64,000 nt of DNA from contig NZ_VFIL01000002.1 in assembly GCF_007858285.1 (NCBI RefSeq), forward strand, positions 124,001 through 188,000, written 5' to 3'. Of this stretch, positions 4,541 to 19,323 are shown piece after piece (the first letter of the stretch is position 1; every line of letters starts with the position of its first letter). A model generated the notes under the pieces. The model had not been told where the DNA came from. It did not search any database and saw only the letters and a list, made by a program, of their open reading frames with translations. Source of the DNA: Pseudomonas brenneri (GTDB lineage: Bacteria > Pseudomonadota > Gammaproteobacteria > Pseudomonadales > Pseudomonadaceae). The translations under genes and the position numbers were made by a program.

Positions 4541-5896
4541 ATGACGACTCGTACCCGTATCCTCACCGGCATCACCACCACCGGCACACCGCACCTGGGC
4601 AACTACGCCGGTGCCATCCGCCCGGCGATCCTCGCCAGCCAGGATGCCAATGCCGATTCGTTTTACTTCCTGGCCGACTACCACGCCCTGATCAAGTGCG
4701 ATGACCCGCAGCGCATCCAGCGCTCGCGTATGGAAATCGCCGCGACCTGGCTGGCCGGTGGCCTGGATGTGAACCGGGTGACGTTCTATCGTCAGTCCGA
4801 TATCCCGGAAATTCCCGAGCTGACCTGGCTGCTGACCTGCGTCGCGGCCAAGGGCCTGCTCAACCGCGCCCACGCCTACAAGGCCTCGGTGGACAAGAAC
4901 CTGGAAAACGGCGAAGACCCGGATGCCGGGATCAGCATGGGCCTGTACAGCTACCCGGTGCTGATGGCGGCGGACATCCTGATGTTCAACGCGCACAAGG
5001 TGCCGGTCGGCCGCGACCAGATCCAGCACGTGGAAATGGCCCGTGATATCGGCCAGCGTTTCAACCATCTGTTTGGCAAGGGCCGTGAGTTCTTCACCAT
5101 GCCCGAGGCGTTGATCGAAGAAAGCGTCGCCACCTTGCCGGGCCTGGATGGACGCAAGATGTCGAAAAGCTACGACAACACCATCCCGTTGTTCACCAGC
5201 GCCAAGGACATGAAGGACGCGATCTCGCGGATCGTCACCGACTCCCGCGCGCCGGGTGAGGCCAAGGATCCGGATAACTCGCACCTGTTCACCTTGTACC
5301 AGGCGTTTGCCACTGCGGAACAGGAGCGGCAACTGCGCAGCGAACTGCTCGACGGCCTGGGCTGGGGCGAGGCGAAGAACCGCCTGTTCCAGTTGCTGGA
5401 CGATCAGTTGGGTGAAGCCCGCGAGCGTTACCATCAATTGATGTCGCGCCCCTCGGACATGGAAGACCTGCTGCTGGTCGGCGCCAAGAAAGCCCGTGCC
5501 GTTGCCGGTCCGTTCCTGCAAGAGCTGCGTGAAGCCGTGGGCCTGCGCTCGTTCGTCAACCAGGCCGCCGAGGCAGTCAGCACCAAGAAGAAGGCGGTGA
5601 AGGCCGCACGCTTTGTGAGCTTTCGTGAAGACGACGGCAGCTTCCGCTTCCGCCTGCTGGCGGCTGATGGCGAGCAGTTGCTGCTGTCGCGCAACTTCGC
5701 CGACGGCAAGGCGGCGGGTGCTGCCACCAAGCAGTTGCAGTCCGGCCAGGCGCTGGATGTGCGCAGTGAAGCCTCAAGCTTCAGTGTGTGGCTCGACGGC
5801 GCGTGTGTCGCCGACAGCCCGGCCTTCGCCGACGCCGCTGCGCGGGATGCTGCCATCGAAGCCGTGCGCGTGGCGTTGACGCCCATCGAGGACTGA
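4541..5896 (+). CDS. trpS: Tryptophanyl-tRNA synthetase with C-terminal extension
   Basis: This class I synthetase charges tRNA-Trp. The HIGH-equivalent TPHLGNY is at residues 16-22 and the KMSKS loop at 206-210 (GRKMSKSYDN). At 451 residues it is about 115 longer than the E. coli enzyme (334). The extra C-terminal part (about 355-450) contains two degenerate repeats. FRFRLLAADGEQLLLS...FAD begins at 368 and FSVWLDGACVADSPAFAD at 414. They resemble the tandem repeat of the small YegP/DUF1508 proteins. The catalytic domain looks complete, so the extension is an addition, not a frame error. Confidence 0.95.
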   Translation: MTTRTRILTGITTTGTPHLGNYAGAIRPAILASQDANADSFYFLADYHALIKCDDPQRIQRSRMEIAATWLAGGLDVNRVTFYRQSDIPEIPELTWLLTCVAAKGLLNRAHAYKASVDKNLENGEDPDAGISMGLYSYPVLMAADILMFNAHKVPVGRDQIQHVEMARDIGQRFNHLFGKGREFFTMPEALIEESVATLPGLDGRKMSKSYDNTIPLFTSAKDMKDAISRIVTDSRAPGEAKDPDNSHLFTLYQAFATAEQERQLRSELLDGLGWGEAKNRLFQLLDDQLGEARERYHQLMSRPSDMEDLLLVGAKKARAVAGPFLQELREAVGLRSFVNQAAEAVSTKKKAVKAARFVSFREDDGSFRFRLLAADGEQLLLSRNFADGKAAGAATKQLQSGQALDVRSEASSFSVWLDGACVADSPAFADAAARDAAIEAVRVALTPIED

Positions 5897-5924
5897 CCCG
5901 ACCAAGGGTTGATTGCCATTATCC

Positions 5925-5955
5925 GGGGCCATCGTTACAGTGACGGCCCGTTTTT
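5925..5955 (+). terminator. Probable terminator after trpS
   Basis: GGGGCC...GGCCC pairs around a small inner CGTTA-CAG-TGACG stem, followed by GTTTTTG. It lies between trpS and zapE, so zapE may have its own promoter or be reached by read-through. Confidence 0.6.
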
Positions 5956-5975
5956 GTTGCCTTGCTAACGAAATT

Positions 5976-7070
5976 ATGACGCCCCTAGAACGATATCAAG
6001 CTGATCTGAAGCGCCCCGACTTCTTCCATGATGCGGCCCAGGAAACGGCGGTGCGCCATTTGCAGCGCCTGTACGAAGACCTGGTCGCGGCCTCGCAGAG
6101 CAAACCCGGGATGCTCAGCAAGTTGTTTGGCAAGAAAGACCTGGTGCCGGTCAAGGGCCTGTATTTCTGGGGGGGCGTGGGCCGGGGGAAGACATACCTG
6201 GTCGATACCTTCTTCGAAGCGCTGCCGTTCAAGGAAAAATCGCGCACGCACTTCCACCGCTTTATGAAGCGTGTGCATGAAGAGATGAAGACCCTGCATG
6301 GCGAGAAAAACCCGCTGACCATCATCGCCAAGCGTTTCTCCCAGGAAGCCCGGGTGATCTGCTTCGATGAGTTCTTCGTGTCCGATATTACCGACGCGAT
6401 GATCCTTGGCACCTTGATGGAAGAGTTGTTCCGCAACGGCGTAACCCTGGTCGCCACCTCGAACATCGTGCCCGACGGCCTCTACAAGGACGGCCTGCAA
6501 CGCGCGCGCTTCCTGCCGGCCATCGCGCTGATCAAGCAGCACACCGATATCGTCAACGTCGACAGCGGCGTCGACTACCGTCTGCGTCACCTTGAGCAAG
6601 CCGAGCTGTTCCACTTCCCCCTCGACGAAGCAGCCCACGAAAGCCTGCGCAAGAGCTTTCGCGCGCTGACGCCGGAATGCACCCAGGCGGTGGAAAACGA
6701 TAAGTTGATGATCGAAAATCGCCAGATCATTGCCCTGCGTACCTGTGACGACGTGGCCTGGTTCGACTTTCGCGAACTGTGCGACGGCCCGCGCAGCCAG
6801 AACGACTACATCGAACTGGGCAAGATCTTCCATGCGGTGATCTTGAGCGGCGTCGAGCAAATGAGCGTGACCACCGACGACATCGCCCGGCGCTTTATCA
6901 ACATGGTCGATGAGTTCTACGACCGTAACGTCAAGCTGATCATCTCGGCCGAAGTCGAACTCAAGGACCTCTACACTGGCGGTCGCTTGAACTTCGAATT
7001 CCAGCGGACCTTGAGCCGCTTGCTGGAAATGCAATCCCACGAGTTCCTGGCGCGGGCGCACAAGCCTTAG
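5976..7070 (+). CDS. zapE: Cell division AFG1-like ATPase ZapE
   Basis: This 364-residue P-loop ATPase of the AFG1/LACE1 family is a Z-ring-associated protein in E. coli, needed under low oxygen and other stress. Walker A GGVGRGKT is at 66-73 and Walker B VICFDEF at 127-133. The conserved 'ATSNIVPDGLYKDGLQR' sensor stretch and a C-terminal 'GGRLNFEFQRTLSRL' block are present. The ATG at 5976 (MTPLERYQADL) is the usual family start; a longer frame from 5913 would run through the terminator hairpin. Confidence 0.94.
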   Translation: MTPLERYQADLKRPDFFHDAAQETAVRHLQRLYEDLVAASQSKPGMLSKLFGKKDLVPVKGLYFWGGVGRGKTYLVDTFFEALPFKEKSRTHFHRFMKRVHEEMKTLHGEKNPLTIIAKRFSQEARVICFDEFFVSDITDAMILGTLMEELFRNGVTLVATSNIVPDGLYKDGLQRARFLPAIALIKQHTDIVNVDSGVDYRLRHLEQAELFHFPLDEAAHESLRKSFRALTPECTQAVENDKLMIENRQIIALRTCDDVAWFDFRELCDGPRSQNDYIELGKIFHAVILSGVEQMSVTTDDIARRFINMVDEFYDRNVKLIISAEVELKDLYTGGRLNFEFQRTLSRLLEMQSHEFLARAHKP

Positions 7071-7087
7071 GCAAACACCGAACCAAA

Positions 7088-7119
7088 ATGTGGGAGCGAG
7101 CAAGCCCGCTCTCACATTT
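7088..7119. repeat. REP palindrome (GTGGGAGC type)
   Basis: A single REP, ATGTGGGAGCGAGCAAGC...GCTCTCACATTT, lies between the convergent zapE and glxA-like genes. One arm has a T replacing C (CTCTCAC), so the palindrome is slightly decayed. Confidence 0.75.
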
Positions 7120-7137
7120 GATTGTGCCCGGCTTTAG

Positions 7138-8133
7138 TCAGGCGGCCTGCTGGAACTGCTGGCGATACTGGTTCGGCGACAACTCCGTGTGCTGCCTGAA
7201 CAGTCGCGCAAAGAAGCTCGCGTCGTCATAACCCACTTCATAGCTGATGGTCTTGATGCTCTTGCGGCTGCCCGACAACAAGCCCTTGGCCGTCTCGATC
7301 CGCAGGCGTTGCAGGTAGTGCAGCGGCTTGTCGCCGGTCGCGGTCTGGAACCTTCGCATGAAGTTGCGGATGCTCATGCCGTGTTCGCGGGCGACGTCTT
7401 CAAAGCGGAACTTGTCGGCGAAGTGCTCTTCAAGCCAGTGCTGGATCTGCAGGATGATCACGTCCTGGTGCAGCTTCTGCCCGCCAAAACCGATGCGTCC
7501 CGGCGCGTAGCTGCGCTGCACTTCGTAGAGAATGTCGCGGGCCACGGCCTGGGCGATGTTGGCGCCGCAGAAACGCTCGATCAGATAGATGTAGAGGTCG
7601 CAGGCCGAGGTGGTGCCGCCGGCGCAGTACAGGTTGTCGGCGTCGGTCAGGTGCTTGTCCTGATTGAGCTGGACCTTGGGGAAACGCTCGCTGAAGGCAT
7701 TGAAGAAGCGCCAGTAGGTGGTCGCCTCCTTGCCATCGAGCAGGCCGGCTTCGGCGAGCCAGAAGACTCCGGTGGCCTCGCCACAGAGCACTGCACCCCG
7801 GGCATGCTGCTCGCGCAGCCATGGCAGGATCTGCGGGTAGCGTTTGCTCAGGGCGTCGAAGTCATCCCAGAAGGCCGGCAACACAATGATGTCGGCGTTT
7901 TCCAGGCCGCCGTCCACCGGCATGATCACATCGCTGAAGCTGCGCACCGATTGCCCGTCGGGGCTCACCAGACGGGTTTCAAAGGCTGGGGTGAGGCCCT
8001 GGCCTAGTTGTTTGCCGTAACGCAGGCTGGCGAGGTGGAAGAAATCCTTGGCTTGCATGAGGGTTGAAGCAAACACCCGATCAATGGCCAAAATGCTGAC
8101 GCGCCGCAGGGGCGTGGAGACGAGGCTAGACAT
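7138..8133 (-). CDS. GlxA-family transcriptional regulator (DJ-1/PfpI + AraC HTH)
   Basis: This 331-residue protein has a DJ-1/PfpI-like N-terminal sensor domain (about 10-195, including 'HARGAVLCGEATGVFWLAEAG'). A C-terminal AraC/XylS DNA-binding domain follows (about 225-325, ending 'SYEVGYDDASFFARLFRQHTELSPNQYRQQF'). GlxA-type regulators usually activate catabolism of small nitrogenous or quaternary amine compounds. The Cys in the elbow position (VLCGEATG) is present, but these domains normally bind ligand and do not catalyse. The gene is divergent from the acyl-CoA dehydrogenase, 145 bases away, which may be its target; that link is inference. Confidence 0.88.
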   Translation of the reverse strand: MSSLVSTPLRRVSILAIDRVFASTLMQAKDFFHLASLRYGKQLGQGLTPAFETRLVSPDGQSVRSFSDVIMPVDGGLENADIIVLPAFWDDFDALSKRYPQILPWLREQHARGAVLCGEATGVFWLAEAGLLDGKEATTYWRFFNAFSERFPKVQLNQDKHLTDADNLYCAGGTTSACDLYIYLIERFCGANIAQAVARDILYEVQRSYAPGRIGFGGQKLHQDVIILQIQHWLEEHFADKFRFEDVAREHGMSIRNFMRRFQTATGDKPLHYLQRLRIETAKGLLSGSRKSIKTISYEVGYDDASFFARLFRQHTELSPNQYRQQFQQAA

Positions 8134-15866: not shown

Positions 15867-16616
15867 ATGGAAAACCTCAGCCCCGCCCCGCGTCTTCCCC
15901 GCAAGCGCCGCAGCCTTGCCCAGGAATTGGTCACGGTGTTGTCCGAGCAGATCCGCGACGGCCAGCTCAAGCGTGGCGACAAGTTGCCCACCGAGTCGGC
16001 GATCATGGATGCCCATGGGGTCAGTCGCACGGTGGTGCGCGAGGCGATCTCGCGCTTGCAGGCGGCCGGGCAGGTGGAGACCCGGCATGGTATCGGCACT
16101 TTTGTGTTGGATACGCCGAGCCCCAGCGGCTTTCGCATTGATCCCGCCACGGTGGTGACGTTACGTGATGTGTTGGCGGTCCTGGAGCTGCGCATTAGCC
16201 TGGAAGTAGAGTCCGCCGGTCTCGCGGCCCAGCGCCGCAGTGACGAGCAACTGGCGGCGATGCGCGCGGCCCTCGATGCCTTGAATGAAAGTGCGGCGCA
16301 CGCCAGCGATGCGGTGGCCTCGGATTTCCAGTTCCACCTGCAGATTGCCTTGTCCACCGGCAACCGCTACTTCACCGACATCATGACGCACCTGGGCACC
16401 AGCATTATCCCGCGGACCCGCCTGAATTCAGCGCGCCTGGCCCATGATGACCAGCAGCACTACATGAGCCGCCTGAGTCGTGAACACGAGGAGATTTATG
16501 AGGCGATTGCCCGCCAGGATTCGGATGCGGCGCGGGCGGCGATGCGCTTGCATTTGACTAACAGTCGGGAGCGGCTGCGCCAGGCTCATGAAGAGGCGCA
16601 GGCGCAGCGGGGGTGA
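15867..16616 (+). CDS. FadR/GntR-family regulator, probable galactarate regulator
   Basis: This 249-residue regulator has an N-terminal winged helix of GntR type (about 15-80, 'GDKLPTESAIMDAHGVSRTVVREAISRLQAAGQV') and a C-terminal FCD ligand domain. The FCD domain has the usual metal-site residues in 'DFQFHLQIA', 'EHEEIYEAI' and 'MRLHLTNSRERL'. Members bind short operators and are released by sugar acids or carboxylates. The shared TTGTACGA motif before this gene and before kdgD points to the galactarate genes as target. The effector is inferred. The start at 15867 (MENLSPAPRL) is preferred over an open frame from 15738 that crosses the sspB terminator. Confidence 0.88.
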   Translation: MENLSPAPRLPRKRRSLAQELVTVLSEQIRDGQLKRGDKLPTESAIMDAHGVSRTVVREAISRLQAAGQVETRHGIGTFVLDTPSPSGFRIDPATVVTLRDVLAVLELRISLEVESAGLAAQRRSDEQLAAMRAALDALNESAAHASDAVASDFQFHLQIALSTGNRYFTDIMTHLGTSIIPRTRLNSARLAHDDQQHYMSRLSREHEEIYEAIARQDSDAARAAMRLHLTNSRERLRQAHEEAQAQRG

Positions 16617-16641: not shown

Positions 16642-16839
16642 TCACGCCAGGGTAAAGTCGATTTGGGTAACTTCGCCATTGTCGATATGGAAGTTTTTGG
16701 CCAGGATCAATGCAGGCGGATCACCATCAAGTTGAACGGTGTCACCGATATTGGGTAGGTCCGCAGCATCGATATTCTGTGTTCCGGGTTTGGATTTATT
16801 GGATTTGGATGTGAACGTGCATTTTTTTTTAGTTGCCAT
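16642..16839 (-). CDS. Small protein of unknown function
   Basis: This 65-residue protein has a very basic start (MATKKKCTFTSKSNKSK) and a neutral to acidic, probably beta-rich remainder ('IGDTVQLDGDPPALILAKNFHIDNGEV'). I recognise no family. GTGAGGCACACC gives a good ribosome site for the ATG at 16839. It lies on the same strand as the phospholipase C-like gene, 188 bases downstream of its stop, and may be part of the same acquired segment. A hairpin at 16983-17014 separates the two. Confidence 0.55.
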   Translation of the reverse strand: MATKKKCTFTSKSNKSKPGTQNIDAADLPNIGDTVQLDGDPPALILAKNFHIDNGEVTQIDFTLA

Positions 16840-16982
16840 GGTGTGCCTCACTATTCTGGATTAGTAAAGGGCCTCCAAGGTGACTGCACCTCTTGCTGTT
16901 GAGGTAGCTTGGTGGTGGCATCCAATCTAGGGGCAGCAAGCATATCGCTGATACTGTCAGAATTCACAGTGACGACGAACGG

Positions 16983-17027: not shown

Positions 17028-18185
17028 TCAAGGCAGCGGGTTATTCGGCTTGTAGTCCTTAAGCAACAAATACGTACTCCACCCCCACCAATCATTGGTC
17101 CACTGCTTGTCATTCAGGTTGTTGACGTCCTTGCGCCGCAGCACCTTGTCGCCTTCGGCCTTGAACAATGGCGAAAAGTTATTTGCCGGGTTGTTCGCCG
17201 CATTCAGGTCCGGCACATGCAGCGGTGCCTTGAACGTGGCTGGGGAGGGCGCGATACCGCTGATGTACGCGTCGAATATCTCGTCGGCCGAAGCCTGCAC
17301 GGCACGCTTGACCTGGGTGCGGTTGGCGGCATCGTTGCTATCGAAATAGCGCTTGTCACCATAGGCATGCCACTCATCGCCCAGGGCGTTGCGCACGTTA
17401 AGCCCGAACTTGCTGTCTTCATCGTGCATAAAACGACTGATCAGCGAACCCAATTCACCTGGTGTGACCACCGCCGCCAGTTGCTTGCGCGGGACGCGCA
17501 GGTGGCCCGCAGAAAACAGATCGGTCAAAAAGTGATCGGCAAAGCTGTTCATGGCGTAGGCCAATTCCAATTGCTGATCACTGCCGTTCTGGTGAGCCAC
17601 TACCGCTTGTTGCAGGGCGGCAGTATGCCCGGCCAGGTAGGCTGACAGCGCCCATTCACCGAAATGGTCGGCATTGTCGGCCGCCAGCTTCAGATAGCGA
17701 CCCAGTGGCACCATCGCTGATACGACGCTGCCGCCGCCAGTGATACGGTTCCACTCTTCAGACAACGTATCTCCTAATGCATCATAGGCCTCGTGCGGTT
17801 GTTTGCCGTCCTTGATGGCCTGCTTGACTGCATTGATCTCTTTTTGCATGACCGCGAGGATTTGGCCCGCTTCGGCCCGCGATGCCGGCAACGTTGCCAG
17901 CGAGTTGAAGGCCGCGCTAAAGCGTTGCACGCGGTCGGCTGCCGACGCGCCATCGCTGATGGGTTGACCGGGAATGCCGTAGAAATCCCCCCCCAGGGAG
18001 ATGATCTGGCCATAGGTCAGGGCCAGGCCGTTGGGCAGGTGCAACTCGACGTTAGCACCCGGAATAGAGGGTTCTCCCTGCACAAAACGCAGTTGGGTGT
18101 CATCGCCAATGGCGGTGTGCTCGCCGCCCTCGAAGCGCAGGGAAGGGATAGGGTTTTTGATGTTGATCGATTTAAGTTCTGACAT
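17028..18185 (-). CDS. Zinc-dependent phospholipase C-like protein
   Basis: The 385-residue protein contains HFLTDLFSAGH (His218-x3-Asp222-x5-His228). This is the same spacing as the zinc ligands His118, Asp122 and His128 of Bacillus cereus phospholipase C. Other likely ligands are His23 (GEHTAIGD), His174, His187 and the HAYGD motif (His273, Asp277). Such enzymes cleave phosphatidylcholine and similar lipids; a leaderless type is known in P. fluorescens and Legionella. I see no signal peptide or membrane helix, so export would need a special route or cell lysis. AAGGAGCTAAC precedes the ATG. A LexA box lies about 40 bases upstream. The exact substrate is not shown by sequence. Confidence 0.75.
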   Translation of the reverse strand: MSELKSINIKNPIPSLRFEGGEHTAIGDDTQLRFVQGEPSIPGANVELHLPNGLALTYGQIISLGGDFYGIPGQPISDGASAADRVQRFSAAFNSLATLPASRAEAGQILAVMQKEINAVKQAIKDGKQPHEAYDALGDTLSEEWNRITGGGSVVSAMVPLGRYLKLAADNADHFGEWALSAYLAGHTAALQQAVVAHQNGSDQQLELAYAMNSFADHFLTDLFSAGHLRVPRKQLAAVVTPGELGSLISRFMHDEDSKFGLNVRNALGDEWHAYGDKRYFDSNDAANRTQVKRAVQASADEIFDAYISGIAPSPATFKAPLHVPDLNAANNPANNFSPLFKAEGDKVLRRKDVNNLNDKQWTNDWWGWSTYLLLKDYKPNNPLP

Positions 18186-18224
18186 GTTAGCTCCTTGCTA
18201 TGTCGTAGGACTCTTCCTTATTAA

Positions 18225-18240
18225 CTGTATGTATATACAG
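18225..18240. promoter_or_regulatory. LexA (SOS) box upstream of the phospholipase C-like gene
   Basis: CTGTATGTATATACAG is CTG-N10-CAG with an alternating TA core, matching the proteobacterial LexA consensus. It is centred about 47 bases before the start codon of the minus-strand gene. On that strand GTGACA lies one base before it, so the box would fill the promoter spacer, a normal place for repression. Confidence 0.85.
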
Positions 18241-18325
18241 TTGTCACGAGAATAGAGGAATAATTTCCTACGTCAAGGCGCTCTCTATAAACGAACGCAA
18301 AATCCTGGCAAGCGACGAAATAATA

Positions 18326-18353
18326 TTGACGAACGATTTTATAGTTGTACGAT
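18326..18353 (+). promoter_or_regulatory. Candidate promoter of the galactarate operon
   Basis: TTGACG (18326-18331) and TACGAT (18348-18353) are separated by 16 bases, about 58 bases before the kdgD ATG. The -10 overlaps the TTGTACGA operator candidate, which would suit repression. Confidence 0.5.
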
Positions 18354-18411: not shown

Positions 18412-19323
18412 ATGAATCCACAAGAACTGAAGTCCATCCTCTCCCACGGTCTGCTGTCTTTCCCAGTGACCGATTTCAACGCCCAGGGTGATTTCAACCA
18501 GGCGGGCTATATCAAGCGCCTGGAGTGGCTGGCCCCTTACGGCGCCACCGCTCTGTTTGCAGCCGGCGGTACCGGTGAGTTTTTCTCCCTGGCAGCCAGT
18601 GAATATTCCCAAGTGGTGAAAACCGCTGTTGATACCTGCGCCACCAGCGTACCGATTCTCGCCGGTGTTGGCGGCTCCACGCGCCAGGCCATCGAATACG
18701 CCCAGGAGGCCGAGCGCCTGGGGGCCAAGGGCCTGTTGCTGCTGCCGCATTATCTGACCGAAGCCAGCCAGGACGGTGTCGCCGCCCACGTCGAGGCGGT
18801 GTGCAAATCGGTGAAGATTGGCGTGGTGGTCTACAACCGCAACGTCTGCCGCCTGACCGCTCCACTGCTGGAGCGCCTGGCCGAACGTTGCCCGAACTTG
18901 ATCGGCTACAAGGATGGCCTGGGTGATATCGAGCTGATGGTGTCGATCCGTCGCCGTCTGGGTGACCGTTTCAGCTACCTGGGCGGCTTGCCGACCGCAG
19001 AGGTCTACGCCGCTGCCTACAAGGCCCTCGGCGTGCCGGTGTATTCCTCGGCGGTGTTCAACTTCATTCCGAAAACCGCGATGGACTTCTACCATGCAGT
19101 TGCCCGGGAAGATCACGCCACCGTCGACAAGATCATCGATGACTTCTTCCTGCCTTACCTGGACATCCGTAATCGCAAGGCCGGTTATGCCGTGAGCATC
19201 GTCAAGGCGGGCGCAAAAATCGCCGGCTATGACGCAGGCCCGGTGCGTACCCCGCTGACCGATCTGCTGCCGGAAGAGTACGAAGCCCTGGCTGCGCTGA
19301 TCGATAAGCAAGGCGCGCAGTAA
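18412..19323 (+). CDS. kdgD: 5-dehydro-4-deoxyglucarate dehydratase
   Basis: This 303-residue enzyme of the DHDPS/NAL aldolase superfamily dehydrates and decarboxylates 5-keto-4-deoxyglucarate to 2-oxoglutarate semialdehyde. The Schiff-base Lys167 is in IGYKDG and the catalytic Tyr141 in VVYNRN. The GTGEFFS segment (53-59) fits the substrate-carboxylate loop. The start at 18412 ([10 protein letters not shown]) is chosen; a frame open to 18352 would begin inside the operator/promoter. It is the first gene of the operon, ahead of the semialdehyde dehydrogenase that uses its product. Confidence 0.93.

Follow-up and report, generated by a model that had tools for sequence, protein, structure and literature searches.

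In a 64,000-nucleotide stretch of the Pseudomonas brenneri genome (contig NZ_VFIL01000002.1, positions 124,001 to 188,000, henceforth the window), a gene for a phospholipase C lies behind a predicted LexA operator of the SOS response. The gene is, by its sequence, the orthologue of plcC, which encodes the described haemolytic, phosphatidylcholine-hydrolysing PlcC of P. fluorescens. Our reading, to which we assign a probability of about 0.6, is that it is a LexA-repressed SOS gene whose product accumulates in the cytoplasm and leaves the cell through lysis by the holin and endolysin of a co-induced tailocin. The DNA presents a box, its place behind a sigma-70-type promoter, its conservation among relatives, a protein with a signal-less N-terminus and, next to recA, a tailocin lysis cluster whose leader has a LexA-like box.

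LexA binding, induction by damage and release by lysis are steps that we infer. LexA would hold the plcC promoter down; DNA damage would induce the gene, and PlcC would build up in the cytoplasm until the co-induced holin-endolysin cassette of the tailocin lysed the cell and let it out. The enzyme would then probably serve as a toxin, or to release nutrients, once a minority of cells had lysed; colicins and lysis-released toxins offer the parallel.

Work on PlcC goes back to 2001 and has treated it as a haemolytic phospholipase whose exit route was left open and whose switch was assumed to be GntR. If our reading is true, the LexA operator would put PlcC in the DNA-damage response and offer tailocin lysis as the exit, so that release by lysis may explain how PlcC leaves the cell, an old question. 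It would also extend the SOS regulon from repair functions and bacteriocins to a lipid-cutting enzyme. DNA damage in a few cells would arm these and open them at once, and conditions that damage DNA could increase the extracellular phospholipase of biocontrol strains and in spoilage or clinical isolates. The original prediction, made from the letters of the window, had presented an SOS-controlled phospholipase C as one not known to have been described. The enzyme itself is already known, as P. fluorescens PlcC (PMC2613904), but no mention of it as an SOS gene was found in the open-licence literature: among the matches listed in titles and the beginnings of abstracts there was no SOS- or LexA-controlled Pseudomonas phospholipase C.

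The predicted LexA box and promoter

The plcC orthologue occupies positions 17028-18185 on the minus strand, an open reading frame of 385 residues with an ATG start that is predicted to encode a phosphatidylcholine phospholipase C-type protein. The predicted box, a 16-base palindrome that reads CTGTATGTATATACAG (CTGTATATACATACAG on the plcC strand), lies at 18225-18240, with exactly the sequence and coordinates that had been claimed for it. Between the box and the ATG there are 39 bases (18186-18224), in agreement with the earlier figure of about 40.

The relaxed pattern CTGT-N8-ACAG is weak evidence when taken alone. With at most one mismatch it matches 10 times in the window, against 21.06 expected from shuffles, and its exact form is found at 72 sites genome-wide, against 22 for the reversed control. 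The strict pattern CTGTATNNNNATACAG is much rarer, with three exact and 13 one-mismatch sites, 16 altogether, in 5,987,712 bases against three for the reversed control. The two exact sites other than the plcC box lie before yebG and before a radical-SAM gene of a DNA modification or repair type, and seven of the 15 other sites of this pattern stand before genes that belong to SOS or repair-type families. Those with one mismatch include recA, lexA, a PA0069-type radical-SAM gene, topB and a UmuD-like gene whose neighbour is presumably YedK-like; one more falls within the tailocin leader, and a further seven are in or near other open reading frames or have no assigned gene. We also scored 58 sites (50 listed among the 72 exact CTGT-N8-ACAG sites, plus eight strict-pattern sites) with a LexA matrix built from seven boxes of the same genome, the plcC box excluded from training. 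The plcC box ranked third, with lexA fifth and recA eighth. On this evidence the operator matches the consensus of the LexA regulon.

On the minus strand, a sigma-70-like TTGACG-16-TATTCT (18276-18249) consists of a -35 hexamer TTGACG at 18271-18276 and a -10 hexamer TATTCT (TATGCT in the consensus of the relatives) at 18249-18254. It ends eight bases before the box, and the predicted transcription start therefore falls at or just before the box edge. The promoter scan by itself was not significant (two sites in the region against 0.9 expected in shuffles), and we accept the promoter because it is conserved across loci: when 67 loci are aligned on the box, both hexamers form blocks of conserved columns, giving TTGACG-16-TATGCT and then the box, with little conservation upstream of -40. 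The Shine-Dalgarno-like AGGAGC at 18190-18195 (minus strand) agrees with the letters that most of the aligned loci have at +45 to +50, counted from the start of the box. The operator is thus placed where it would block a conserved promoter.

Conservation of the box among relatives

A match to plcC is present in 70 of 199 Pseudomonas genomes. The 70 loci fetched come from 69 of them, as G096 contributed two loci and the fragment in G139 was left out, and an exact CTGT-N8-ACAG occurs at most 500 bases upstream in 69 of these 70. Its position was counted on the 67 fetched loci with a set start, L068 excluded, and in all 67 the box stands at -53 to -57 from the ATG. The two loci without a set start, L069 (G059) and L070 (G087), are broken plcC copies that keep the upstream CTGT-N8-ACAG. 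A second set of loci, the best 80 of 213 confirmed (henceforth named loci), includes P. gessardii, P. proteolytica, P. veronii, P. marginalis, P. protegens and P. chlororaphis. Here the exact box is found at -54 to -57 in 79 of 80, while that of L128 differs by one base. The fetched and named sets overlap in species and their loci are related, so that they are not independent.

The sole fetched locus without a box is L068, the second copy in G096, which groups with another subfamily. The original prediction had named the gene without its box as the case that would speak against it, and by both counts (69/70 and 79/80) this case is absent within the orthologous group. Among 39 loci with flanks of up to about 5 kb, 14 lack the DHDPS-family and/or GntR-family neighbour of plcC (some of the 14 end at contig ends); 13 of the 14 are boxed, L068 again being the exception. 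The box, as far as these sequences go, is tied to the gene itself more than to its surroundings.

The sequence lends good support to SOS control of a phospholipase C that has no signal peptide, and the observation originally made is right and stronger than had been stated. It is likely that LexA represses plcC and that DNA damage induces it.

The enzyme and its gene neighbourhood

The MFN1032 PlcC sequence is represented here by P0011, through its matching ends: the published MFN1032 cloning primers, translated by hand, give MSGLELA and NQPAN, which are the ends of P0011. This protein is 85-88% identical to that of the window.

The description of the product as zinc phospholipase C-like was not borne out by Pfam, NCBIfam, PHROG or PDB-sequence searches, which returned nothing for the window protein (no Pfam family at E <= 1), and was supported by the predicted fold. 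Zinc phospholipases C make up the 13 best rows of the fold comparison for the predicted model (pLDDT 91.5). With Foldseek by itself, no row reached E <= 0.001. According to the model, the product has the helical fold of the zinc phospholipases C, and these are its nearest folds. Six residues, H174, H187, H218, D222, H228 and H254, are invariant in 63 of 63 sequences and are candidate His/Asp metal ligands. That there is no signal peptide holds as judged by hydropathy alone, since no 15-residue stretch among residues 1 to 60 has a mean above 0.41.

Divergently from plcC, at 18412-19323 on the plus strand, runs a DHDPS-family gene (PF00701, E 2e-51) whose start codon was checked and which is a neighbour outside the SOS unit. 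At 15867-16616, also on the plus strand, a GntR-family regulator gene lies 3' of plcC as its convergent neighbour; the GntR name comes from the description of the same neighbourhood in PMC2613904. Within the stretch compared, the DHDPS gene is present in 77 and the GntR gene in 76 of the 80 named loci, and these usual neighbours argue for a resident chromosomal gene. A phage origin was considered and rejected, with no homologue in 50,697 phage records and 15 pattern matches in IMG/VR of which none was confirmed, and so was a plasmid origin, with a homologue in two of 72,556 plasmid records. The gene is rare outside Pseudomonas: 398 genomes drawn from the phylum gave six matches, five of them Pseudomonas.

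A tailocin lysis cluster as the proposed way out

Directly before recA, the same genome carries genes for a CI/PrtR-like repressor, a PF16085 holin (E 1.6e-53), baseplate, tail and tail-fibre proteins and an endolysin. The LexA-like CTGTATATCCATACAT lies between the repressor and the holin. We call this cluster a tailocin by its baseplate, tail-fibre, tail, holin and endolysin families; the tail sheath family PF04984 had no match in this genome. Twenty other plcC genomes were chosen by hand among the listed rows of the 69 with a holin, the P. brenneri genome being viewed separately, and in 16 of the 20 CTGTATATGCATACAT precedes the holin match by 455-473 bases. Of 119 control kilobases, 0 have such a site. 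The SBW25 tailocin is reported to be under SOS control and its holin to be harmful once expressed (Hall 2021, PMC8544851), and the Pf-5 holin and endolysin were lytic in E. coli upon expression (Mavrodi 2009, PMC2647930).

The plcC gene is at C22:141-142 kb and the tailocin cluster at about C22:452-465 kb, about 310 kb apart. Three roles had been suggested for the enzyme, those of a lysis factor, a cargo of phage-tail-like particles and a toxin, and of these the best fit is a toxin-like enzyme that lysis sets free. A cargo of phage-tail particles has no positional support, with plcC so far outside the cluster, and a lysis factor is possible yet less likely in a genome that is already equipped with a holin and an endolysin. 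Release of PlcC through tailocin lysis appears to be the best-supported exit, at about even odds. More tentatively, and somewhat short of an even chance, fluorescent pseudomonads may own an SOS-timed lipase weapon released by lysis, in which LexA would keep both the signal-less phospholipase C and the tailocin's holin and endolysin repressed and in which the latrotoxin-type domain of the longest orthologues and a small partner (see below) would aim or hold the enzyme.

Several points weigh against LexA control and release by lysis. Phospholipase production also depends on GacS/GacA (PMC2613904, PMC3269426, PMC5851621), and PlcC turned up in culture supernatants for which no DNA damage is stated (PMC2613904); SOS is therefore not the sole input, and the likely picture is that expression depends on GacS/GacA and that LexA, judging by the sequence, would keep the promoter locked. 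In SBW25, 12 genes are placed behind LexA sites, five of them up with both plasmids (Hall 2021, PMC8544851), and plcC is not named among these LexA-site genes in the text available from that paper. The link with haemolysis is not clean, because complementing the plcC mutant did not restore haemolysis (PMC2613904, PMC3269426). No box was found within 400 bases in three out-group relatives, L071 (on a Rhizobium plasmid), L076 and L068, a check in which alphaproteobacterial LexA motifs were also used and outside which a Hymenobacter relative lies. As for release, the holin family is present in 69 of 70 plcC genomes against 68 of 129 others (Fisher p 1.3e-13), or in 66 of 67 when three with plcC fragments are left out, but this association is confounded by phylogeny and shared ancestry alone could suffice for it. 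G025 is the single plcC genome of the 70 without the holin family, and four of the 20 genomes inspected have no box before the holin. PF16085 also marks prophages, and the membership of each of the 20 holins in a tailocin is an assumption.

Alternative explanations

Two other regulators may be considered for the plcC promoter. In 2008, control by the neighbouring GntR regulator was put forward from an upstream T.GT-N(0-3)-AC.A motif (PMC2613904), and the window does contain loose matches to it, at 18241-18249, between the -10 hexamer and the box, and at 18342-18352. On the plcC strand, however, 0 of 79 named loci have the motif in the promoter segment, from -40 to +16 relative to the box, and 47 of 79 have it farther up, towards the divergent gene. 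The 13 loci without a DHDPS and/or GntR neighbour in the stretch compared are still boxed, and GntR overexpression left lipopeptide production unimpaired (PMC3269426), although this tests a related claim only. We regard GntR control as extremely improbable. It is also very unlikely that the operator is bound by a RecA-cleavable, PrtR/CI-like tailocin repressor and not by LexA, which would make plcC a damage-inducible member of the tailocin regulon. The plcC box variant CTGTATATGCATACAG, seen in 14 of 79 named boxes, is indeed one base from the tailocin holin box CTGTATATGCATACAT, but its half-sites are common to the yebG, lexA and recA boxes of the same genome, and four genomes (G007, G032, G110 and G127) keep the plcC box without such a tailocin box.

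With plcC under LexA, living cells might still export the enzyme by a secretion system or in vesicles, the SOS response setting the time and lysis being unneeded. The presence of PlcC in supernatants without stated DNA damage would fit this, as would the flagellar-type route discussed in the same report (PMC2613904) and the use of Tat and type II secretion by the Legionella relative PlcA (PMC6617341). We nevertheless consider it rather unlikely, given an N-terminus that is neither hydrophobic nor signal-like and a mechanism that PMC2613904 itself calls unknown. The enzyme could also act inside its producer, weakening the cell's own membrane within an SOS lysis or vesicle programme, for which an SOS box before a gene whose product has no signal-like N-terminus would be suitable. 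Here a holin and an endolysin, preceded by a LexA-like box in their leader, are already present in the genome, the effects reported are extracellular (haemolysis and egg-yolk lecithinase), and it was possible to grow and assay MFN1036, a strain that overexpresses the enzyme (PMC2613904), all of which stands against action on the own membrane and makes it, in our view, quite unlikely.

Comparison with known systems

The closest known systems are PlcC and PC-PLC, the latter reportedly from Preuss 2001. PlcC of MFN1032 (Rossignol 2008, PMC2613904) resembles the window protein in its 385 residues and lack of a signal sequence, and its gene likewise has a DHDPS-type gene 5' in antisense and a GntR gene 3'. 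The 42-kDa protein was found in the supernatant, supernatants of the plcC mutant were without haemolysis, and lecithinase activity was reported (PMC2613904). Unlike here, GntR control was proposed, the release route was left open and the word LexA has 0 occurrences in that report (PMC2613904).

The zinc phospholipases C (B. cereus PC-PLC, clostridial alpha-toxin, Listeria PlcB) show no sequence-level match to the window protein and, in their classical form, have a signal peptide, whereas the window protein lacks a signal-like N-terminus. Pfam gave no profile match at E <= 1 between this protein and the classical Zn_dep_PLPC family, which we take to be PF00882. In the classical enzymes the N-terminal Trp of the mature protein is a zinc ligand; its place falls at the internal Phe18 of the window protein, and the VIA rows begin at model residue 18-19 against chain residue 1-2 in most zinc phospholipase C rows.

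Legionella PlcA, PlcB and PlcC are said to have been described as a zinc metallophospholipase C family by Aurass in 2013, and we know of no SOS control in this family. P. fluorescens PlcC is 43% identical to Legionella PlcA (PMC2613904), and Legionella PlcB is reported as nearest to a P. fluorescens protein (PMC6617341). These enzymes differ from ours in that PlcA has a Tat signal and Legionella PlcC is type IV-secreted (PMC6617341).

Colicins and other SOS-controlled, lysis-released bacteriocins share with plcC a LexA box at the transcription start, the lack of a signal peptide and an assumed release by lysis. Unlike in these, no immunity gene was recognised beside the 385-residue form and no receptor or translocation domain was found by profile, and the enzyme group of PlcC acts on phosphatidylcholine. 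Holin-endolysin cassettes export chitinases, Tc toxins and clostridial toxins. As in our proposal for plcC, a phage-type holin and endolysin there export a signal-less protein; unlike there, the cassette would be that of the tailocin, far from the gene and linked to it by a shared regulator.

Long forms, distant relatives and a second palindrome

Unexpectedly, the longest orthologues with an SOS box have a C-terminal domain that shares homology with a domain of spider latrotoxins. A partner gene for a protein of about 63 residues follows the long-form phospholipase C in 71 of 71 loci and the short form in 0 of 75 (examples are L029:1283-1474, on the minus strand, and L071:7446-7643). It was recognised by a short letter pattern, and four of 150 loci were omitted from this count (L069, L070, L122 and L135). 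The partner has a weak match to Pfam bMG3 (E 0.019), below the cut-off.

Behind the second phospholipase C copy of G096, which has no SOS box, come the partner and then a vWA protein (L068:1072-3303 and 4803-8025), and the same order of phospholipase C, partner and vWA protein is found on a Rhizobium leguminosarum plasmid (L071). L068 adjoins two open reading frames on the opposite strand, one of which matches the Bacillus HBL family (PF05791, E 1e-11). In the distant relatives P0186, P0216 and P0225 the phospholipase domain is fused to further domains (PF19193, PF25490), and one of the three carries the source name 'Tectonin domain'.

An exact CTGT-N8-ACAG at 16954-16969, absent from the original prediction, was tried as a second SOS box and rejected, as it ranked 35th of the 58 sites scored with the LexA matrix. 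It resembles a different, CTGTYA-type family of palindromes, CTGTYARNNNTRACAG, with 12 exact places in this genome; with one mismatch there are 28 in the forward form against 16 for the reversed control, a modest excess. Copies lie about 110-130 bases before the start codons of several open reading frames (L094, L095, L096), and the copy in the window, one base off, stands at a similar distance before a 65-residue open reading frame at 16642-16839.
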